A program made the position numbers and the translations under genes. From Clostridia bacterium (GTDB lineage: Bacteria; Bacillota; TC1; UBA5767): 64,000 nucleotides of DNA. The notes under the pieces are model-generated. The model worked only from the letters and a program-made list of their open reading frames with translations, ran no database searches and was not told the DNA's origin. Shown piece after piece: positions 17,949-31,045 of the stretch. The stretch spans positions 1,226,001 through 1,290,000 of the forward strand of contig CP069393.1 in NCBI GenBank assembly GCA_016887505.1, in the 5' to 3' direction. Each line of letters opens with the position of its first letter. The first letter of the stretch is position 1.

Positions 17949-20900
17949 TTATTTATTATTCTGTCCCAGCTCTTGCAGATCTTCTTGGGCCTTTTCCACC
18001 AAAGAACGGACATACGGTTCTTCGCTAGTTTCAAAGGTCTTTATTAGCAGCTGAATCAACTGAATCGCTTCTTTTTTCTTTTTTTTCTGCATACACAGTT
18101 TGGCTTTCCCTTGCATAGCTTTTGCCACAAGTTTGTCGCCTTCTTCACCCGATACCGGGATTTTTCGTCCTAAAATTTTATCATAAATTCGATATGCTCT
18201 TTTGGCATTAATTGATCCAAAAAAGCCGAACCGCTTTTCACAAAAAAGTGTCGCGAGCTCCAAAAGACCTTTGTATACATAAATCAAGGTATTTTCATCT
18301 TTGCGATTCTCATACGTGTCTACCAGCTCTTGATATGCCTTCATCGCTCTTTTCCTACTACCTATTCCCGAAAAAGCTTTTCCCAACTTGTAGAGCGCTT
18401 GAGACCGATATTCATCTACCAAATTCCCCTTGCTGGTACCAAAAATCTCTTGCATCTGCATATACTGGTCGATAGCCGGTTTCTGCTCACCAGTTTCAAG
18501 CATCATATCAGCATAAATCAACGTTGCTCTGGCCAACAGTTCTTTTAATACTATATCACTTTCAGACCCAATTTCATCCTTGAGTACGATAAAATCAGTT
18601 TCCACCTGTTTTCTATCGCGTAACGTAAACGATGCTTCCATGCGTTCTAAACGCGTTCTCGCCAGGTTCTTCCTTTGATCCAGCGCCTTCTCTTGGTCAA
18701 ATAGCTCAACAATATTTTGTGCGCCCATAACAAGTTTTTCGTTATTCCCTTGCCTTCTGTACGCTTCTTGGGCTTCACGTAGGATGACCATCAGGTTCTT
18801 TCTGGTCTCTGCCGAAAGCGCCTTTTGCAGTTTCAATCTTGCTAGCTCAGACAGCCCGCAAAGCTTTTGGTCTTCCTCCATCTTCCGAAGCACAGAAATT
18901 TCCATTTTTGCTGCTCGGCTAAACACTTCCCAGGCAACTTCATTGTCTGGACTAAGGGTACGGACCTGATGCAAGTCAATCAACGCCTCCGCATGCTTTT
19001 GGCGGTAGAAAAGGCTCTTGGCCCTTTCGTACAGAGCTTGCATCCGGTAGATGACCGTATTTTCGCCGGAGCGATTCTTAAAAAAATCTTCCATTTCAGT
19101 TAAGACTACCATCTGTTGGTCGTATTGTTCATCCTGCAAATGCATATATGCCTTATCCAAATAGCTTTTGGCTAAGAGCTCATCATACCTTGTATCCTCA
19201 AGTTCTCTAGCACAGAGTACCACTTGATCCAAACTGCGTTGCGCATTAATATTCTGTCCTAGCTGACGTTGAATTTTTCCCCGCTTATAGAAAACTTCCA
19301 GTAAATCCCCCTTGGTTTCCAAAATAGCTTCATTACCATAACGAACTACATATCGATCATAATCTCGTAGGGCTTCTTCACTCTGTCCAAGATGATGAAG
19401 CAAATCACCTCGTTTAGCCAGTGCTTTGGCAGACACCCCATCCAAATTCGTATCATCGGCTGCATATTCTAACAATGCACTCGCAGCGTCGACCGCTTCT
19501 TTTTGATGTTGGGTGTTTTCCAATGCCGACACGAGCACCAAATAAAGCGCACCTACCTTGTCTGTAATAAAGCTATCCTTGCTTTCTTTCAAACGAGTTA
19601 TTCCACGCTTTGCGTACTCCACAGCTTCTTGGAAATAATTGTTTTCAACATAGGTTTCGCCAGCAAACAAATAGCCTAGTGACAGAACCCTTTCAACACT
19701 GTTATCCTTGTAAACCTTGAAGCTTTGCAACATCTTATCAATATAGTCAAGACTAGACTCATACTCCTTACGACGACGATACGTCTTAGCAAGTTCCAAT
19801 AATGAGGTAGCCATAAATGTACGAATAGTGGCACTTTCCTCGCGGTCGTAGGTTGAACTGATATTTACGAATAATTCCATCGCTTTTTCAGTTTCATCTG
19901 AGGCCATGGCCAAGGCCGCCAAGGAATACTTTCCTTGAGCCATCATCTCTCTTGCTCTAGTCGAAGAAAGACCTTCATAGGCCCCTATGAAGGATTGATA
20001 ATCCAACATCGCTTCTTCATGCCAACCAAGTTCCGCTTTGACCATAGCTTTGGCAAGAGCACCTTGGGCGCATAAAAGAAGCATTTCATCGTCCCAGTCT
20101 CCATGATAATCCGCATCAAGCAAGTCATAGGTCTTGATAGCTTCTACATAACCACCAGCATCGCGTAAAGCTTTGGCTTTTCTTAGCAATGCCTGCGCCC
20201 GAATACGTCGAACATTGACATCAAACGCATTCTCATAACGATTGATCAGCTTGTTCCAAGCCTTCAAGGGATAGCCGTTTTCGTCTTTAGACTTCAGGTC
20301 AGCAAGCAAATAAAACAGCACTGCCTTTTGGTGCATGGTTTTAGCGCCCTGTGGTAAAATTTTCAACAAATCCCGGATGCGGTCCGCAAGGCCAGTAAAT
20401 TCGCCCTCGCTATATAGACAAAGTAAATCCAAATACTCGCTACGCATATCGATATGCTCAGACCGTAGCATTCCATGCGCTACCTTATAATCACCGGCAG
20501 TTGCTAGAAAATAAGCCTTACACATACGTTCTCTACCTAGGTTAGCCTGTGCACGAAAGGCGGTATTCATTGCAGCAATAGCTTCAGAGCTTCTACCTGC
20601 CCTCATATGGCACAAGGAAAGATGCAGCAAAGCTACGTCATGGTAATCGTCCAGGCCCTTGTTTTCTGCTTTTACATTCTTCAAAAGATCCAATACTTCT
20701 TGGAATTTTTGTAATGCGCCTACATCATCTCCACTGCATTCTAATGTTAGTCCCAGGCAGGTACGAAGTGCTGCTTTAAAATCCAGCTTTTCTCCTTTTT
20801 TGGTTTTATCTGTCAAAGCAAGTGCTTTTTCCAAAAGAGCCTTCGCCGTCTTTTGGGTCCCCAGACCTTGAACCGTCTGTAAAACCATGTGCAAATAGCT

Positions 20901-22058
20901 ATCCATTTGTTCTTTCACGGTTTTGGGTTCAAAAGCAAGCAAAGCTTCTGCTGCCTGCTCATATTGGAAGGACAAAAGTTTTTCGCGTACTGCATCGATA
21001 GGAGTATTTTTCTTCGTTTGAAGTGTGTATCCATCCAGTTTATTTTGAATCAGCAAAGCATCACTCAGCCCATATTCTGCTAAAAAGTGTTTTTGCTTAG
21101 TCTGTAAAAACTGCATAGGATTGCTTATAAGATTGGGTAAGGGAACAGAGAGTTCCCGCACAAGTTCCCTTAGCACCTGCACTGCAGTAAGCTTTTGGGT
21201 TTCTATCAATGGTAGAAATTCTGCACACGATACCTGTAGTACTCGGCTCGTCTTCTCTTGTGGAAAGGAAAAAGTCTCTCTTTTCTCACTAGTCTTTCCA
21301 ACAAAAAATACCCTTGGATGTTTTTTTAGCCATGATGGAAGCGCGTAATAGTCCTGCTCCTGGTGTAGAAACCAATAAATACTGGTACCTTGTTCCTTAT
21401 TTTTCAGACTTTGGGCCAAAGCCCTCATAAACGAGTTGTCCTCTCTACCTGAAAAGCCGAGCACGAAACAACCCTTATCCGCCAGTTGTGCTTTTAGAAA
21501 AGCCTCTTTTTCATCACTTTCCTGCTCCAATGGAGAATTTGCCAGTCTACTTTTAAGGCCTTGCAGACGATATTCTCTTCTAGAACCTTGAAGATATACC
21601 AGATTTATTTCATTTGGAAGAAGCTTTTCTTTAGGGCATTCATCCCAAACGAAGAGATCTTCCCCCATGTTTCGAACGGCCTGTTCTAGGGTTGTATCGT
21701 AGTTGCCAGTTACTGCTAGTCCAGAGGAAATACGGCCAACCAAAATACGAGCTAGAAGTTGAATCGCCTCCGATGGTTTTGCCTTGGTCTGCGCATGAAT
21801 GAAGCTACTTAAATCGTCATCTTTCGTAAATGACTCCCTCAGTATTTCCGTATAGTGATCATCCAGTCGGTTTTCATAATCCCGTTTACTATTATCCCTG
21901 AATGCAAGACAACTCTCACAGGTTTTCTCAGCCAACGGTACCGTAGGCGAGGAAACACCAGCGCCATAATAGAAGAAAAATGACTGCCCCTTTTCACGAC
22001 TTGCATCAGCTATAAGGGCTATTGCCGTCTGTAAATCGATAATCGCTTTACTTTCCAC
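17949..22058 (-). CDS. Giant protein with degenerate SIR2-like domain and long TPR array
   Basis: This 1369-residue predicted cytosolic protein has two parts. Residues 20-260 resemble the SIR2-like (SIR2_2) fold: a nucleotide-binding motif FFFYYGAGVSSP at 27-38, TGNYDTTLEQA with Asn119 at 117-127, LVYLQGS at 153-159 and VLGFSGRED at 199-207. In active SIR2-type NADases the third motif is LHGS with a catalytic His; here it is Gln157 (codon CAA), so the enzyme may be inactive. From about 330 to the end the protein is all-helical with many tetratricopeptide-like repeats. The GTG start at 22058 has GGAGG at 6-base spacing and overlaps prfB by 11 bases. It is cotranscribed with division and secretion genes. 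Function unknown. Confidence 0.72.
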   Translation of the reverse strand: MESKAIIDLQTAIALIADASREKGQSFFFYYGAGVSSPTVPLAEKTCESCLAFRDNSKRDYENRLDDHYTEILRESFTKDDDLSSFIHAQTKAKPSEAIQLLARILVGRISSGLAVTGNYDTTLEQAVRNMGEDLFVWDECPKEKLLPNEINLVYLQGSRREYRLQGLKSRLANSPLEQESDEKEAFLKAQLADKGCFVLGFSGREDNSFMRALAQSLKNKEQGTSIYWFLHQEQDYYALPSWLKKHPRVFFVGKTSEKRETFSFPQEKTSRVLQVSCAEFLPLIETQKLTAVQVLRELVRELSVPLPNLISNPMQFLQTKQKHFLAEYGLSDALLIQNKLDGYTLQTKKNTPIDAVREKLLSFQYEQAAEALLAFEPKTVKEQMDSYLHMVLQTVQGLGTQKTAKALLEKALALTDKTKKGEKLDFKAALRTCLGLTLECSGDDVGALQKFQEVLDLLKNVKAENKGLDDYHDVALLHLSLCHMRAGRSSEAIAAMNTAFRAQANLGRERMCKAYFLATAGDYKVAHGMLRSEHIDMRSEYLDLLCLYSEGEFTGLADRIRDLLKILPQGAKTMHQKAVLFYLLADLKSKDENGYPLKAWNKLINRYENAFDVNVRRIRAQALLRKAKALRDAGGYVEAIKTYDLLDADYHGDWDDEMLLLCAQGALAKAMVKAELGWHEEAMLDYQSFIGAYEGLSSTRAREMMAQGKYSLAALAMASDETEKAMELFVNISSTYDREESATIRTFMATSLLELAKTYRRRKEYESSLDYIDKMLQSFKVYKDNSVERVLSLGYLFAGETYVENNYFQEAVEYAKRGITRLKESKDSFITDKVGALYLVLVSALENTQHQKEAVDAASALLEYAADDTNLDGVSAKALAKRGDLLHHLGQSEEALRDYDRYVVRYGNEAILETKGDLLEVFYKRGKIQRQLGQNINAQRSLDQVVLCARELEDTRYDELLAKSYLDKAYMHLQDEQYDQQMVVLTEMEDFFKNRSGENTVIYRMQALYERAKSLFYRQKHAEALIDLHQVRTLSPDNEVAWEVFSRAAKMEISVLRKMEEDQKLCGLSELARLKLQKALSAETRKNLMVILREAQEAYRRQGNNEKLVMGAQNIVELFDQEKALDQRKNLARTRLERMEASFTLRDRKQVETDFIVLKDEIGSESDIVLKELLARATLIYADMMLETGEQKPAIDQYMQMQEIFGTSKGNLVDEYRSQALYKLGKAFSGIGSRKRAMKAYQELVDTYENRKDENTLIYVYKGLLELATLFCEKRFGFFGSINAKRAYRIYDKILGRKIPVSGEEGDKLVAKAMQGKAKLCMQKKKKKEAIQLIQLLIKTFETSEEPYVRSLVEKAQEDLQELGQNNK

Positions 22059-23182
22059 CTTGTTCCTCCTTCGGTTTTTCTGCCATAGCATGCAGATACC
22101 CTTCTATAAAAGGGTTGATGTCTCCATCCATAACCTTGTCAATGTTTCCAATTTCAATGTTTGTTCTATGGTCTTTAACCAACTTATACGGATGAAAAAC
22201 GTATGAACGAATCTGGCTGCCCCAGGCTATTTCGCCCTTAGCCCCACGCAATTTAGCATGCTCTGCCTCTTCTCTTTTCCTTTTTTCTTCGTATAGTCTG
22301 GCTTGCAGTATCTTCATGGCTCCAGCCTTGTTGCTATGCTGGGAGCGTTCACTTTGACACTGTACCACTATCCCTGTTGGCAAGTGTGTAATGCGCACAG
22401 CTGAGTCCGTCTTATTCAAATGCTGTCCACCTGCCCCACCTGAACGATACGTGTCAATCCTTAACTCTGCCTCATCTATGCTCACAGCTTCTTCTTCTGG
22501 CATCTGCGGAACTACGTCCACACTGGCAAAACTTGTATGTCTTCTGCTTGCTGTATCAAAAGGAGATATGCGGACCAATCGGTGCACACCCTTTTCGGAT
22601 TTTAAATAGCCATATGCATGACGGCCGGAAACACCAAAGGTTACACTCTTAATACCCGCCTCATCACCATTTTGGTAGTCTAATAATTCCGTCGCAAAAC
22701 CGTTGGCTTCAGCCCAACGTAGATACATACGGTAAAGCATCTCTGTCCAATCCTGGCTTTCTGTACCACCCGCACCTGGATGAAGCGTCATGATACAATC
22801 TAGAGCATCATACGGTGAAGCGAACAAGGTCTCCAACTCAGTCTTTTTCAGCACAGTCTCCAACATCTCGATTTGCTTATCCCATTCGAGCTTTAGGGAA
22901 TCATCATCCTCCATCTCCATCAACTCTTCTAGGACCCCTAATTCCTCCCATGTCTCGCCAATCTTTGCAAAGCGATTCACAATAGCCTTAAGGTCATTCA
23001 GTTTGCGACCTGTATTTTCAGCTTTTTCACGGTCGTCCCAAAAATCTTGCGCAGTCATCTGCTGCTCCAATTTCTGAATTTCAACTTCTTTACCGGCTAA
23101 GTCAAAGAGAGCTCCTAAGCCTTAGTTCTAACGCCTCCAGTTGTTCTCTTTTACGACTATATTCTTCCATCTGATTCTTCAT
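22048..23182 (-). CDS. prfB: Peptide chain release factor 2 with programmed +1 frameshift
   Basis: RF2 terminates translation at UGA and UAA. The frame opens at the ATG at 23182 and reaches an in-frame TGA at 23104-23102 after 26 codons. A +1 shift at CTT TGA C then continues the product (377 residues in all). The internal Shine-Dalgarno AGGAG at 23116-23112 stands at the spacing seen in known prfB shift sites, giving autoregulation by RF2 level. SPF, the stop-recognition tripeptide (ISPFDTASRR), and the catalytic GGQ (GGAGGQHLNK) are intact. Annotation from a later start (23070) would miss the N-terminus. It follows secA by 6 bases, the common Bacillota order. Confidence 0.97.
23101..23116 (-). 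promoter_or_regulatory. prfB programmed +1 frameshift site
   Basis: Reading on the minus strand: AGGAGC TCT CTT TGA C. The Shine-Dalgarno-like hexamer, the slippery CTT codon, the in-frame TGA and the following C match the conserved RF2 autoregulatory signal. Confidence 0.96.
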
Positions 23183-25678: not shown

Positions 25679-25719
25679 GTTTTCTCCTTGTATTATGAAC
25701 TTATAGCAAGCTATAGTTC

Positions 25720-25921
25720 AAAAGTATTTTGATATAATTTACATAGTGCTGTGGATTAGTGCTTTCTCCTATAGCTTTGACTATTTCGTAAAGGCTCTAA
25801 CCACATCTCTATGTTTTTTTGTTAATGAGTTAGATAACACGTAGATGTTTTATCTCGGGCAAGGTTACATGACATAGATGCTTGTGGAGCGCAGCAACTT
25901 TTTAGTAAAGGATGTGTCACT
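25720..25921 (+). ncRNA. Candidate IS110 bridge RNA region (left-end non-coding DNA)
   Basis: IS110-subgroup elements encode a structured bridge RNA of roughly 150-200 nt in the non-coding DNA before the transposase; it pairs with target and donor DNA. Here a TATAAT lies at 25733-25738, followed by about 180 nt without an ORF. A hairpin-forming segment, AGATAA with TTATCT, lies near 25830-25855. The internal guide loops could not be resolved by eye, so this is inferred from family architecture and position. Confidence 0.4.
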
Positions 25922-27085
25922 ATGATCTATGTTGGTATCGATGTCGCCAAGAATAAACATGACTGCTTTATTGTTGATTCGGAGGGTGAAATCATCCATA
26001 ACGTATTCACCTTCAAAAACTCTCGCCAGGGTTTCAACCTATTACTGCAAACCATTCCTGACGTGAGTCACTCGCAAATACTAATAGGACTTGAAGCCAC
26101 TGGACATTACAGCAATAATCTCATCAACTTCCTGACAGAAAACAATCTTCCCGTGATTATTCTCAATCCTCTGCAAACCAGTCTTTTCAGAAAAGCTCAA
26201 ACGCTTAGAAAGACCAAAACAGATTCGGTTGATGCAAAAACCATTACTATGATGCTCAGAACAGGTGACTTCAAATCCCACTCACCTGTATCTTACCACC
26301 ATAGAGAGCTCAAGTCACTTTCTAGACACCGATCGCGTCTTGTCAAAACCAGAGCTTCTTACAAAATGTCCATCACTAGATTGTTAGATATCGTTTTCCC
26401 GGAGCTCCCAGCCTTGGTCTGGTCTATCCATCAGGCTTCTGTCTATCAGCTCCTACTGGCTTTTCCTAACACTCGAGAAATTGCCGATGCTCACCTAACC
26501 AAGCTTACTCATGTCCTTAGTAAAGCTTCCCATGGACGTTATGGAAAAGAAGAAGCTGTAGCTATTCGTGATTCTGCCAGAACATCTATTGGCACATGTT
26601 CACCATCTTTATCCTATGAACTTAAGCAAACCATTCACTTGATACAAAACCTGCAGAACGAGATTAAAGAGCTGGATCAAATAATTGAACAGCTTGTTGG
26701 TGAACTGAATTCTCCCTTGCTCAGCATACCTGGCATTTCCCATCGGTTGGCAGCTGTCATCCTCTCGGAAATCGGAGACATCACCAGGTTTGAATCTCCC
26801 GCTAAGCTGCTTGCCTTCGCAGGGTTGGATCCATCCACACATCAGTCTGGCAAGTTCACAGCGACTCAAACCAGAATGGTCAAGCGAGGATCCCCTTACT
26901 TGCGCTGGGCCCTCTTGCAAGCCGCCAGGTTGATTGTGATGCGAGATGCGACCTTCAAAGAGTACTATAAGAAGAAACGTTCTGAAGGCAAACATCACTA
27001 TGTCGCTCTGTCTCATACAACTAAAAAGCTGATCCGGGTCATCTTTAAACTATTGTCTAGCAACCAGAACTACGTCGAGCAGTAG
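25922..27085 (+). CDS. IS110-family DEDD transposase
   Basis: This 387-residue recombinase has an N-terminal DEDD (RuvC-like) domain with D7 (GIDVAK), E58 (GLEATGHY), D101 and D104 (KTDSVDAK). The C-terminal transposase_20 domain begins LLSIPGISHRLAAVILSEIGDI and carries the GLDPSTHQSG stretch where the catalytic serine of this family resides. Length and all key acidic residues look intact, so it is probably active. IS110 enzymes insert by a bridge-RNA-guided recombination without terminal repeats. AAAGGATG lies before the ATG. It is the only plus-strand gene between 8.8 and 46.5 kb. Confidence 0.95.
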   Translation: MIYVGIDVAKNKHDCFIVDSEGEIIHNVFTFKNSRQGFNLLLQTIPDVSHSQILIGLEATGHYSNNLINFLTENNLPVIILNPLQTSLFRKAQTLRKTKTDSVDAKTITMMLRTGDFKSHSPVSYHHRELKSLSRHRSRLVKTRASYKMSITRLLDIVFPELPALVWSIHQASVYQLLLAFPNTREIADAHLTKLTHVLSKASHGRYGKEEAVAIRDSARTSIGTCSPSLSYELKQTIHLIQNLQNEIKELDQIIEQLVGELNSPLLSIPGISHRLAAVILSEIGDITRFESPAKLLAFAGLDPSTHQSGKFTATQTRMVKRGSPYLRWALLQAARLIVMRDATFKEYYKKKRSEGKHHYVALSHTTKKLIRVIFKLLSSNQNYVEQ

Positions 27086-27111
27086 TAACTAGTTGAAATT
27101 GTTTGCCACAT

Positions 27112-27135
27112 GTAGCAAAATTGCTACGTCTTTTT
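27112..27135 (+). terminator. Intrinsic terminator after the IS110 transposase
   Basis: GTAGCAAAATTGCTAC at 27112-27127 forms a stem that is followed by GTCTTTTT, 27 bases after the transposase stop. Confidence 0.75.
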
Positions 27136-27292
27136 ATGATGCGAAAATCCCCATTATAGTTCTCTTGAACAATTAAATGTTTTGCTTGACTTCATATAGT
27201 TAGTCTTTAAGTAGCTCTAATTGAAGTGTGCTAAAAAAATCTACACTGCTTATTATAACCCATTTCGTTCATGAATACCTTCACTTATACAT

Positions 27293-27316
27293 AAAAAAAC
27301 GCCGGATTTCCGGCGT
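27293..27316 (-). terminator. Intrinsic terminator of hpf
   Basis: The 7 bp GC-rich stem ACGCCGG (27299-27305) with CCGGCGT (27310-27316) is followed by a T run on the minus strand. It ends hpf before the IS110 element, so secA is unlikely to be read through from hpf. Confidence 0.88.
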
Positions 27317-27329
27317 CTTTTATAGATAT

Positions 27330-27863
27330 TTACTGTTCCGATTCAATTATTCCATAGTGACCATCTTTTCTAGCATAAATTACATTGACATTGCCATTGG
27401 CTGCATTGGTGAATACAAAGAATGTATGTCCCAACATATCCATCTGCATCACGGCTTCTTCCTCAGTCATCGGCTTCAATTGGAAACTCTTTCTCCGAAT
27501 AATGCCGGGTTCTTCAACAGGCTCACTATCCTGCTTGAATGCTTCTAAATTAATTTTTTTTACCCCGCGGTTCTTATTCTTACGATCCAATTTTTCTTTG
27601 TGTTTTAAATACTGCTTCTCCAAATTATCTAAAGCGCGATCAATGCTCAAATACATATCTTCAGATCTTTGCTCGGCTCTAAGGAAATAGCTATGGTAGT
27701 GAACTGTTAATTCTGCAATATGGACACCACTTTCTACTCGAAGTAGCACAGCACCATCTGCATCATCATCAAAATACTTATCCATGCTTTGGAGCTTGTT
27801 TTCTGCGTAAACTCTCAGAGGATCGGTTACCTCAGTGCCTTTGGTTCTAACTAATACTTTCAT
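27330..27863 (-). CDS. hpf: Long-form ribosome hibernation promoting factor
   Basis: This 177-residue protein joins an N-terminal HPF/YfiA domain (1-105), which occupies the ribosomal decoding region, to a C-terminal dimerisation domain (about 120-177; FQLKPMTEEEAVMQMDMLGHTFFVF). The latter lets long HPF pair ribosomes into 100S dimers in stationary phase. GAGGAGG before the ATG is a strong ribosome site. It is the conserved upstream neighbour of secA in Bacillota. The DnaA-box-rich gap begins about 120 bp upstream of its start. Confidence 0.96.
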   Translation of the reverse strand: MKVLVRTKGTEVTDPLRVYAENKLQSMDKYFDDDADGAVLLRVESGVHIAELTVHYHSYFLRAEQRSEDMYLSIDRALDNLEKQYLKHKEKLDRKNKNRGVKKINLEAFKQDSEPVEEPGIIRRKSFQLKPMTEEEAVMQMDMLGHTFFVFTNAANGNVNVIYARKDGHYGIIESEQ

Positions 27864-27914
27864 ACTTTCGACCTCCTCTATTATGTTGTATAGTACTATA
27901 TTCCTTATGACAGT

Positions 27915-27936
27915 CCAGAAACCCTGCCAAATAGAA
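27915..27936 (+). repeat. 22 bp direct repeat, copy 1
   Basis: It begins CCAGAAAC and ends ATAGAA. It matches 28225-28246 at 20 of 22 positions in the same orientation and lies just outside the first DnaA-box group. Confidence 0.75.
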
Positions 27937-27986
27937 AAATTTCTTTGGACTAACTCCTATTTTTCATAAAATAAGTGTGGGGTTAT

Positions 27987-28419
27987 TTATCCACACTTAT
28001 CCACATAGTTCTTTTCTATCTTTTAATCCCTATTTTCACAATTGCCCATAAAACGGACATTCCAGCCGATTCATGAAAATGTGGATAATGTGGATAAGTG
28101 GCTAATCTGTCCATAAATCCCTTCTTCCTATTTTATGTAAACTTTACTACCCCTGCCCGGTATTAATCGATCTTTTTATTCCTTTAAGCCCTTATATATC
28201 AAGGGTTCTAGTCATTTTATGCCTCCAGAAACTCTGCCATATAGAAGTTACTCTCTGAATATTTTTACAAATTTTATTCACTAGATAAAGATATTCTTGT
28301 TTTCATCGTTATCCACAATCGAACAAATTTTCCCTTTTTCATGTCAAGCACTATTTTGCATTTTTCACCCTTTTTTTTCATTAATTCTTCCTGAAAGTCA
28401 TTGTGGATATTGTGGATAA
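27987..28419. promoter_or_regulatory. Cluster of DnaA boxes
   Basis: Exact TTATCCACA boxes lie at 27987-27995, 27997-28005 and 28309-28317 on the plus strand. Exact copies on the minus strand (TGTGGATAA as written) lie at 28080-28088, 28089-28097 and 28411-28419. One near match (TGTGGATAT) is at 28402-28410, directly beside the last. The boxes form three groups: two head-to-tail pairs pointing at each other, and a distal set 210 bp away. Six perfect 9-mers in 433 bp are far beyond chance. The position suggests DnaA binding for titration or transcription control rather than the chromosomal origin. Confidence 0.85.
28225..28246 (+). repeat. 22 bp direct repeat, copy 2
   Basis: This is the second copy of the repeat at 27915-27936, with two substitutions. 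The two copies are 310 bp apart and bracket the four left-hand DnaA boxes. Confidence 0.75.
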
Positions 28420-28463
28420 GCCCTGTTTTTCCCCACGGATAAAGCGTTCCAATTGTGGACATT

Positions 28464-29105
28464 CTAGTGCTTTGCCAAAAAGCAAATTCCTACAATATGG
28501 GCATAACCGCAGGCACTCAAAGTGCAAACTGCCTCTGTCATGGTTGCACCTGATGTAAATACGTCATCAACGAGCAGTACCCTTTGCTTTTCAAAATTTA
28601 TACATCTCTTTTGAATGCTCTGGTTCACTGTGAATACACCGTGAATATTTTCACGGCGCTCGGTAGTAGCTAGGTTGGTCTGCTTGGGTGAATTCTTCCT
28701 CTTCAGAAGACACCGAACTGGCCTGTCCATATACCGGCCCAACCATTTTGCCAACAGCTCCGCCGTATTGTAGCCCCTTTGTCCCACACGAACTCCGGTG
28801 CTCGGTACATAGGTTATCAATGCAGGCAGTTGGCTTGCATCCGGAATATTGCCTAGGTAAGCCTGAAGCATGAGCATGGCCATGGTCTTGGCCAATTGCG
28901 TTTGTCCGCCATATTTAAACTTTAAATGTACCTGTCTAAAATCCTTGTATGACGCCACACGATATAAAAGAAAATCCCCTGCAAGCAGAGGATTATGTTG
29001 TTGAAAATTATTGATTTTTTGACGACAGGAAACACACAACATTTCCTGCTCTTTTTTGGCACTTCCACACAAGGGACATCGCGGGTCTCGCCTAAATATA
29101 TGCAT
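28464..29105 (-). CDS. comFC: ComFC-like phosphoribosyltransferase-fold competence protein
   Basis: The 213-residue protein has an N-terminal zinc ribbon (CPLCGSAKKEQEMLCVSC, four Cys at about 10-27), the YVPSTGVRVGQRGYNTAELLA segment, and the PRPP-binding motif VLLVDDVFTSGATMTEA near residue 175. ComFC/GntX proteins act in DNA uptake, probably handling or protecting incoming single strands. No comFA helicase lies beside it. It is the last gene of the eight-gene operon and starts 1 base after the preceding stop. cinA, another competence-linked gene, lies two genes upstream. Confidence 0.9.
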   Translation of the reverse strand: MHIFRRDPRCPLCGSAKKEQEMLCVSCRQKINNFQQHNPLLAGDFLLYRVASYKDFRQVHLKFKYGGQTQLAKTMAMLMLQAYLGNIPDASQLPALITYVPSTGVRVGQRGYNTAELLAKWLGRYMDRPVRCLLKRKNSPKQTNLATTERRENIHGVFTVNQSIQKRCINFEKQRVLLVDDVFTSGATMTEAVCTLSACGYAHIVGICFLAKH

Positions 29106-29106
29106 C

Positions 29107-29799
29107 TTATCGTTCCCCCACTAGATACTTAAACTGTTTGTAATTAACGCCCTGTGCTTTGACTGCAAGGGCCATATAGTCATTGGCTGGATAGACTGTA
29201 AACTTACCTGCAGCTTTTACTTCAGGTTGGAATGATGCCAGATAAATCTTTAGTCGTGGATTTTCTTCCTTGCACTTTTCCAAATACTCTGAAAAATCAT
29301 CCAACCCATATGCTGCAACTTGAATGGATTCTTCATACAATTCCGGCCGGATCAACCGACCGGCAGGCAAAACAGCTAACGAAAACAAAGCATCCAGCGC
29401 ACTATGTCCACCTGCTATCCCCAATGCCACTACCGTTCCCTTCGAAAAATAGGGATTCTTATCAAAAAAGCAATCTTTTAATAGGCAGATACCATCCTGA
29501 TATAGACTAGACTCCCCGCATTCTTTTCGCTCATGCTTTAGCCATACAGCCAGAACATCTAATGCCCGCATGCGCTTTTCTTCAGCAATTTGCGTGTTTT
29601 TAATCCAATTATAGGCCCGATTTGCTTCCACAATAGACGATACCATTTTTAATCGTTCCAGAGACCGGTGTGCCACTACAATTGTGGCCTTCTCCGCCAA
29701 TTCCCACAGTAAATCTGAATTACTCTGGTTCGGGACTAAAGAATCAATATGCTTAATCATTCGCACATCATCTTCACTGATTCCCTGATTATCGTGCAT
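29107..29799 (-). CDS. Unrecognised 230-residue protein in the cinA-comFC operon
   Basis: I do not recognise this family. The protein is soluble, without signal peptide or membrane segment, and mostly helical. An Ala/Leu-rich central part (about 60-180, for example RALDVLAVWLKHE and GTVVALGIAGGHSALDALFSLAVL) could form HEAT-like helical pairs. The C-terminus (VYPANDYMALAVKAQGVNYKQFKYLVGER) looks more compact. It has one base between it and cinA upstream and one base before comFC downstream, so it is translationally coupled to both; a role tied to DNA uptake or repair is possible but unproven. Confidence 0.7.
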   Translation of the reverse strand: MHDNQGISEDDVRMIKHIDSLVPNQSNSDLLWELAEKATIVVAHRSLERLKMVSSIVEANRAYNWIKNTQIAEEKRMRALDVLAVWLKHERKECGESSLYQDGICLLKDCFFDKNPYFSKGTVVALGIAGGHSALDALFSLAVLPAGRLIRPELYEESIQVAAYGLDDFSEYLEKCKEENPRLKIYLASFQPEVKAAGKFTVYPANDYMALAVKAQGVNYKQFKYLVGER

Positions 29800-29800
29800 A

Positions 29801-31045
29801 TTACGCCTCCGCTTCTACCAATACCGCATAAAGGAAAGCCAAGGTTCGTTTAACACTCATAGACTTGTTGCGCAATCTGTTGCCAGAAAGCAGCAGTTTT
29901 TTGACATGAGACGTCCCATTGTAGTCAACACAAACATAGACTAAACCCACTGGTTTTTCTAAGCTTCCTCCATCCGGTCCAGCTATACCAGATACGGCTA
30001 CACCAATATCAGCACCCGTTTTTTTCCGTATTCCTGCTGCCATGGCTTGGACTGTTTCGGCAGAAACAGCGCCTCGTTTTAGCAATACATCCTTCGATAC
30101 ACCCAAAAATTCTTCTTTCCATTGGTCGCTATATGTTATGGCAGAAAATTGCATATAGTTTGAACTGCCTGGTACGTCTGTCAGACTTGACGTTAAGAGT
30201 CCTCCCGTGCAGGACTCTGCACAGGAAATGCTTAAGCCCTTGTCTAGCAGCAAACGTCCCACAGCTTGTTCTAACGTGTCATCATCCTTGCCAAAAACAT
30301 GTGAGCCTAAACGATCCCTAAAATCACTCTCCATTTGGTCAAGGAGTTGAATTGCTTCACCCTCCTCGTTAGACTTAGCAGTAATTCGGAAGTGAATTTC
30401 TCCACTTTTTGCTGTCGGTGCTAGCGTAGGATTGGTTGAGGCAATCAAGTCCCGAACTCTTTCTTCCGCTGTGGATTCGCCGATACCAGCCACCTTCATA
30501 ACACGTGAAAGGATACGTTCTGTCAAACCAAACTCCTGTTTAAGCCAGGGTAGAATTAGCTGATTAAGTACAGGCTCCAATTCATGCGGTGGACCCGGTG
30601 TTAGAATATAGGTATGTCCATCCATTTCCACCGCGGAACCTGGCGCAGTACCTACTGGATTGGCAAAAACTACTGCTTTTTCAGGTACCAAGGCAACTTT
30701 GTCATTATTTTTCAAATAAGGAAGATTCCATTTTTTTCCATAAGCCCGAATTTTATCCAATGTGGGTTGATGCACCGTTTCACCTAAGCCAAGGACGCTC
30801 ACCAAGGCCTCTCTAGTTTGGTCATCTTCTGTAGGTCCCAACCCTCCATTTAAAATAATCAAATCTACTGAACTAGCCGCCATCTGAATGGCCTCTTCTA
30901 TTCTTTTCTTGTTATCCCCTACTGTCGTAATTTTATATAAATCAATTCCAACTTCAGCCAATGCCCTAGAAAACATTTGGGCATTGCTGTTCACAATCTG
31001 ACCCAAAAGCAATTCTGTTCCAGTACAAATAATTTCAGCTTTCAT
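29801..31045 (-). CDS. cinA: CinA: nicotinamide-nucleotide amidase / competence-damage protein
   Basis: This 414-residue cytoplasmic protein has the N-terminal MoaB/MoeA-like domain (1-170; AEIICTGTELLLGQIVNSN, NGGLGPTEDD) and the C-terminal CinA domain (about 250-410) with CAESCTGGLLTSSLTDVPGSS and VSGIAGPDGG. The C domain deamidates nicotinamide mononucleotide in studied relatives and the N domain is an ADP-ribose pyrophosphatase; both look complete. The start at 31045 is set by AGGAGGAAG upstream. It overlaps the end of the wecA/tagO-like gene by 11 bases. In many bacteria cinA precedes recA; here recA is absent and an unknown gene and comFC follow. Confidence 0.94.
   Translation of the reverse strand: MKAEIICTGTELLLGQIVNSNAQMFSRALAEVGIDLYKITTVGDNKKRIEEAIQMAASSVDLIILNGGLGPTEDDQTREALVSVLGLGETVHQPTLDKIRAYGKKWNLPYLKNNDKVALVPEKAVVFANPVGTAPGSAVEMDGHTYILTPGPPHELEPVLNQLILPWLKQEFGLTERILSRVMKVAGIGESTAEERVRDLIASTNPTLAPTAKSGEIHFRITAKSNEEGEAIQLLDQMESDFRDRLGSHVFGKDDDTLEQAVGRLLLDKGLSISCAESCTGGLLTSSLTDVPGSSNYMQFSAITYSDQWKEEFLGVSKDVLLKRGAVSAETVQAMAAGIRKKTGADIGVAVSGIAGPDGGSLEKPVGLVYVCVDYNGTSHVKKLLLSGNRLRNKSMSVKRTLAFLYAVLVEAEA

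Follow-up and report, generated by a model that had tools for sequence, protein, structure and literature searches.

The stretch of DNA analysed here, called the window (64,000 nucleotides), covers positions 1,226,001-1,290,000 of a genome that consists of one contig of 2,563,013 bp. It contains a 600-bp gap (27864-28463) between comFC and hpf, both on the minus strand, in which no convincing gene was found; an Rfam search of 25700-30000 detected no RNA family. Within 433 bp, this gap holds six exact copies of the DnaA box TTATCCACA, three per strand, and the near match ATATCCACA. The initial annotation had described a gene-free gap between codirectional genes with six perfect boxes and one near match, and we recovered all of them exactly where it had placed them. 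We add to these a degenerate box, ATGTCCACA, whose 43-bp spacing matches that seen in other families. The features are as follows.

27330-27863, minus strand: hpf, long-form ribosome hibernation-promoting factor (TIGR00741), downstream neighbour
27898-27927, minus strand: sigma-H-like promoter GCAGGGTTT-N12-AAGGAATAT, directly upstream of hpf and with the nearest box about 60 bp away (consensus match only)
27987-28097: module B, plus boxes facing a minus tandem pair
27987-27995, plus strand: exact DnaA box, module B, facing 28080/28089
27997-28005, plus strand: exact DnaA box, module B
28080-28088, minus strand: exact DnaA box, second half of the perfect tandem 18-mer TTATCCACATTATCCACA (minus strand, hpf direction)
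28089-28097, minus strand: exact DnaA box, first half of the tandem 18-mer
28309-28462: module A, nearest comFC, with 43-bp and 9-bp spacings as found phylum-wide
28309-28317, plus strand: exact DnaA box, module A, facing 28402/28411
28402-28410, minus strand: near-exact DnaA box ATATCCACA, in tandem with 28411
28411-28419, minus strand: exact DnaA box, module A
28454-28462, minus strand: degenerate box ATGTCCACA, preceding the module A tandem by 43 bp
28464-29105, minus strand: comFC, ComF-family phosphoribosyltransferase, upstream neighbour

Counted from the hpf start in the hpf direction, the boxes begin at −556, −547 (ATATCCACA), −454, −234, −225, −142 and −132, those at −454, −142 and −132 being in reverse orientation. 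As had been claimed for 27987-28005 and 28080-28097, the plus boxes of module B confront a minus tandem pair. Absent from the initial annotation is the fact that the two modules, 322 bp apart, have matching internal spacing (27987/28080/28089 and 28309/28402/28411). The two modules may go back to an old duplication: they align with a score of 41, against a maximum of 33 in 500 shuffles, and a 23-nt stretch is repeated at 27914/28224, although we saw no such repeat in other members of the genus. The gap is 66% AT compared with 58% for the whole window, and its AT-richest 50 bp (28254-28303, 82%) adjoin the third group of boxes, in agreement with the AT-rich tract reported there.

Two other features of the surroundings were recorded. 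An IS110-family transposase gene (window 25922-27085) lies between hpf and secA and breaks the usual hpf-secA-prfB order, and the gene directly after prfB (window 17949-22091) encodes a protein of 1380 aa that combines a SIR2-like domain with numerous TPR repeats.

We then placed the gap in its genome by genome-wide pattern searches and by looking at separate stretches. All exact boxes of the 64-kb window are those of the gap. In 100 dinucleotide shuffles the whole window held 0.77 copies on average and never more than 4, and the background frequency in the genome predicts about 0.005 copies for a stretch of 433 bp. The whole 2.56 Mb contain 42 exact copies (27 for the reversed motif), and box density is not similarly high at other intergenic sites: only three clusters exist, around dnaA (oriC), at the 3' end of tsaD and in the hpf-comFC gap, the latter being the densest outside oriC. 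The oriC cluster comprises six exact boxes at 1,879,543-1,881,309 around dnaA, with another at 1,884,115, and is 626 kb from the gap. The tsaD pair consists of exact boxes at 1,400,542 and 1,400,577 with TTATCCCCA directly before (region 1400533-1400585), immediately 3' of the genome's own tsaD (1,400,657-1,401,583, minus strand).

Comparison with close relatives, namely two other species of the genus (one being the Peptococcaceae MAG UBA5767) and one of the family, indicated that the boxes were kept while the surrounding DNA diverged. In the genus, box columns were 89% identical versus 31-33% in the rest of the gap; in the family, the values were 76% versus 15-18%. The TCCACA core of the degenerate box at 28454-28462 was also kept in both. 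The gap holds clustered consensus boxes outside oriC that are conserved as boxes and not through general DNA similarity, as would be expected of a cluster of the B. subtilis type. The sister family f2 has a single facing box pair, 45 bp apart and 32-77 bp from the hpf start.

We then extended the comparison to the phylum. Of 173 hpf loci outside the order, 35 had exact boxes in the 800 bp upstream of hpf, 64 boxes in all; 500 permuted motifs averaged 1.6 copies there, with 28 as the highest count, and the reversed motif occurred 3 times. A cluster upstream of hpf was present in 19 of the 78 sampled families (permuted motifs: mean 0.04, maximum 2). Carriers include Pelotomaculum, Moorella, Syntrophothermus, Sporosalibacterium, Thermohalobacter and Marinisporobacter, and nearly all named Bacilli of the sample were without boxes within 800 bp of hpf.

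The exact tandem 18-mer was sought in 299 genomes drawn evenly from the phylum, not selected for boxes, those below 90% completeness being left out; it had 133 matches in 108 of them, and the reversed motif had none. Forty-five matches lay upstream of hpf at distances of up to 10 kb (28 of them no further than 1 kb, 17 at 2.6-9 kb), where about 0.5 were expected by our chance estimate, and every one of them was codirectional with hpf; one further match was downstream of the gene. These 45 represent 22 families, counted as family labels, and include three genomes from the window's own genus; since matches are not phylogenetically independent, the family count is the safer number. A further 57, in 55 genomes, were 3' of tsaD, all oriented against it, while 3 were near dnaA and 27 elsewhere, tsaD and dnaA having been located only in genomes whose tandem matches remained unplaced after the hpf step. 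Among the 27 others (for example G154:C1:3369797-3369837 and G041:C40:98376), two pairs adjoin a LacI-type regulator gene, and lineage-specific clusters may exist.

When hpf and tsaD sites were aligned on the tandem, their consensus sequences were nearly identical: a CCACA resembling a box stands about 43 bp ahead and is followed by GTTATnAACAga- and finally by TTATCCACATTATCCACAg. The composite comprises four DnaA boxes at −43, −12, 0 and +9. At 12 of 41 hpf loci (L025, L031, L123, L137, L138, L153, L163, L180, L081, L084, L103 and L111), TTTCGACA, the complement of the Spo0A box, occurred within 100 bp 3' of the tandem, against a mean of 0.05 and a maximum of 6 for permuted words.

We also looked at the genes around the boxes. 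In many lineages a cold-shock gene (csp) sits between boxes and hpf, and in many relatives a 2-3 kb amino-acid ABC cassette together with the cold-shock gene separates them. This cassette (solute-binding protein, permease and ATPase, the first assigned by Pfam at one locus and the others by eye) starts directly after the boxes in 9 of 10 inspected distant loci. In several families a polar amino-acid ABC cassette stands between the boxes and csp-hpf (L263-L267, L269-L272, L248-L256). In two Thermoactinomycetaceae (L051:776-883 and L077:828-944), four boxes surround the solute-binding/permease gap of the cassette, 2.1 kb upstream of hpf and in the opposite orientation. The upstream neighbour is variable too; a link to comFC instead of hpf was rejected, many boxed loci having another gene before the boxes, although comFC was recognised by a simple motif search that missed some copies. 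The cluster is constant while its neighbours change, which points to a function of the site itself, the fixed orientation leaving room for control of transcription.

Taken together, these results lead us to consider the gap as probably a chromosomal DnaA-sequestering cluster outside oriC, of the kind known in B. subtilis, a reading to which we give a probability of roughly 0.6. The initial annotation had proposed a likeness to the DnaA-binding clusters of Bacillus, and this is supported: no other cluster outside oriC is as dense, the boxes are conserved, and the composite is shared across the phylum with the tsaD site, which is the gcp/ydiF position. What we observe is the boxes, their uniqueness in the genome, their selective conservation, the composite shared by hpf and tsaD across the phylum and the persistence of the boxes amid neighbour change; that DnaA binds here, prefers one nucleotide form, is sequestered and so affects initiation is what we infer. 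DnaA, probably mainly ATP-DnaA, would bind the tandem 9-mers cooperatively, and the tandem and facing boxes would build a multi-protomer complex holding DnaA away from oriC. Passage of the fork, the gap being about half way along the left replichore, would double the sites, and the doubled sites would lower free DnaA and help to prevent early re-initiation. Deletion of six extra-oriC clusters in B. subtilis leads to early initiation (Okumura 2012, cited in PMC5295017 and PMC13220808). Counted against a pure sink is the fact that boxes upstream of hpf always point the same way as the genes that follow them, an arrangement for which a sink has no need; the position of the f2 boxes, where regulation is plausible, counts against sequestration as well. 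Moreover, PMC5295017 describes weak individual effects for single B. subtilis clusters, so that strong conservation of one site may mean a more specific role.

In a first alternative, DnaA would regulate transcription of the operon that follows (hpf, csp or transporter), coupling the replication state to ribosome hibernation or cold-shock function, as it does at sda in B. subtilis. The orientation towards downstream genes in 45 of 45 cases, the f2 boxes overlapping the region just before hpf and the Spo0A-like box that 12 of 41 loci have within 100 bp 3' of the tandem are in line with this idea. However, the first downstream gene varies by lineage between hpf, csp and the amino-acid ABC cassette, the same composite occurs at the tsaD 3' end where it faces no common promoter, and hpf is absent from the main DnaA-bound regions given in PMC4447404. 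In addition, hpf has its own sigma-H-like promoter, found before the gene at 47 of 183 loci as opposed to 1 of 183 in a control stretch; yvyD is reported to be under sigma-B/sigma-H control (Drzewiecki 1998, cited in PMC4923064), and our counts suggest that hpf came under sigma-H control early in the history of the phylum. The distance from boxes to hpf or its promoter is short in f2 (see above) and in f1, where the boxes are about 60 bp upstream of the sigma-H-like promoter; elsewhere csp or the ABC cassette intervenes, and this tends to speak against control of hpf as the role that has been conserved. We regard a transcriptional role as rather unlikely, and the DnaA control of hpf that had been suggested at the outset is at best weakly supported.

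Alternatively, the gap could be a datA- or DARS-like locus that alters the nucleotide state of DnaA and does not only hold the protein. The ordered facing boxes, the conserved spacing and the two modules would suit such a locus, as would the strong preference of the B. subtilis gcp site for ATP-DnaA described in PMC4447404. Nevertheless, B. subtilis is presented in PMC5295017 as having no known regulator of the DnaA nucleotide state, and in PMC13220808 as having neither IHF nor Hda, and we find this role improbable.

Two further explanations fare much worse. A secondary or relic replication origin, which the dense boxes adjoining an AT-rich tract might evoke, is very improbable because dnaA, which has box clusters of its own, is 626 kb distant and because the GC skew is uniformly negative across the window, about 28 kb on one side of the gap and 36 kb on the other, the lack of a switch meaning that the gap is not an origin; the earlier view that it is not the main origin is therefore borne out. 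That the boxes arose by chance, or serve a protein other than DnaA, is scarcely credible, since the same 9-mer is present at the genome's own oriC, its DnaA carries the domain IV motif GGRDHTTVMHA, and chance is excluded by the shuffle and permuted-motif statistics.

Beyond sequestration at a single locus, we put forward tentatively that Bacillota may possess an ancient two-site DnaA control, with one four-box composite, fixed in its spacing, 5' of csp-hpf and 3' of tsaD, as a Gram-positive counterpart of datA/DARS joined in spore formers to a Spo0A-like box at hpf. Our literature searches brought up no description of such boxes beside hpf or comFC in Clostridia, and among the main regions listed in PMC4447404 there is no DnaA site at hpf/yvyD; the conserved hpf-side address of a DnaA cluster is apparently undescribed, although earlier notice of conserved clusters is possible. 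According to PMC5295017, the extra-oriC clusters of B. subtilis seem to be redundant, and doubts have been raised about how important they are. The same address, orientation and spacing in at least 22 families, plus the tsaD site, point to positions maintained by selection, and two specific loci with a defined composite DNA become targets in tractable Clostridia.

Among known systems, the bipartite oriC of Bacillota (boxes upstream of dnaA and in dnaA-dnaN gaps) has the same box sequence, in this very genome, as the gap. It differs in that the gap lacks dnaA, dnaN, rpmH and a GC-skew switch, and the tandem 18-mer is seldom near dnaA (3/133). The datA, DARS1 and DARS2 loci of E. coli are, like the gap, non-coding box clusters away from oriC, and they set DnaA availability or activity; but they need IHF or Fis, act by ATP hydrolysis or nucleotide exchange and occupy a position unrelated to that of the gap, so that the comparison with datA can only be functional. 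Closer are the B. subtilis clusters at sda/yqeG, ywlC, ywcI/vpr, yydA and trmE/jag, which also have multiple boxes outside oriC, six clusters of this kind together restraining initiation; they stand at other genes and several are promoter-linked. The nearest counterpart is the gcp/ydiF region of B. subtilis: gcp is tsaD, and the tsaD 3' site occupies the position of this DnaA-binding region (PMC4447404). Both it and the gap are intergenic and contain multiple DnaA boxes outside oriC. The site studied here differs in lying upstream of hpf, in having two facing modules and in that its DnaA binding is predicted; nonetheless, the hpf and tsaD sites of its relatives carry the same composite, and its own genome is also boxed 3' of tsaD.
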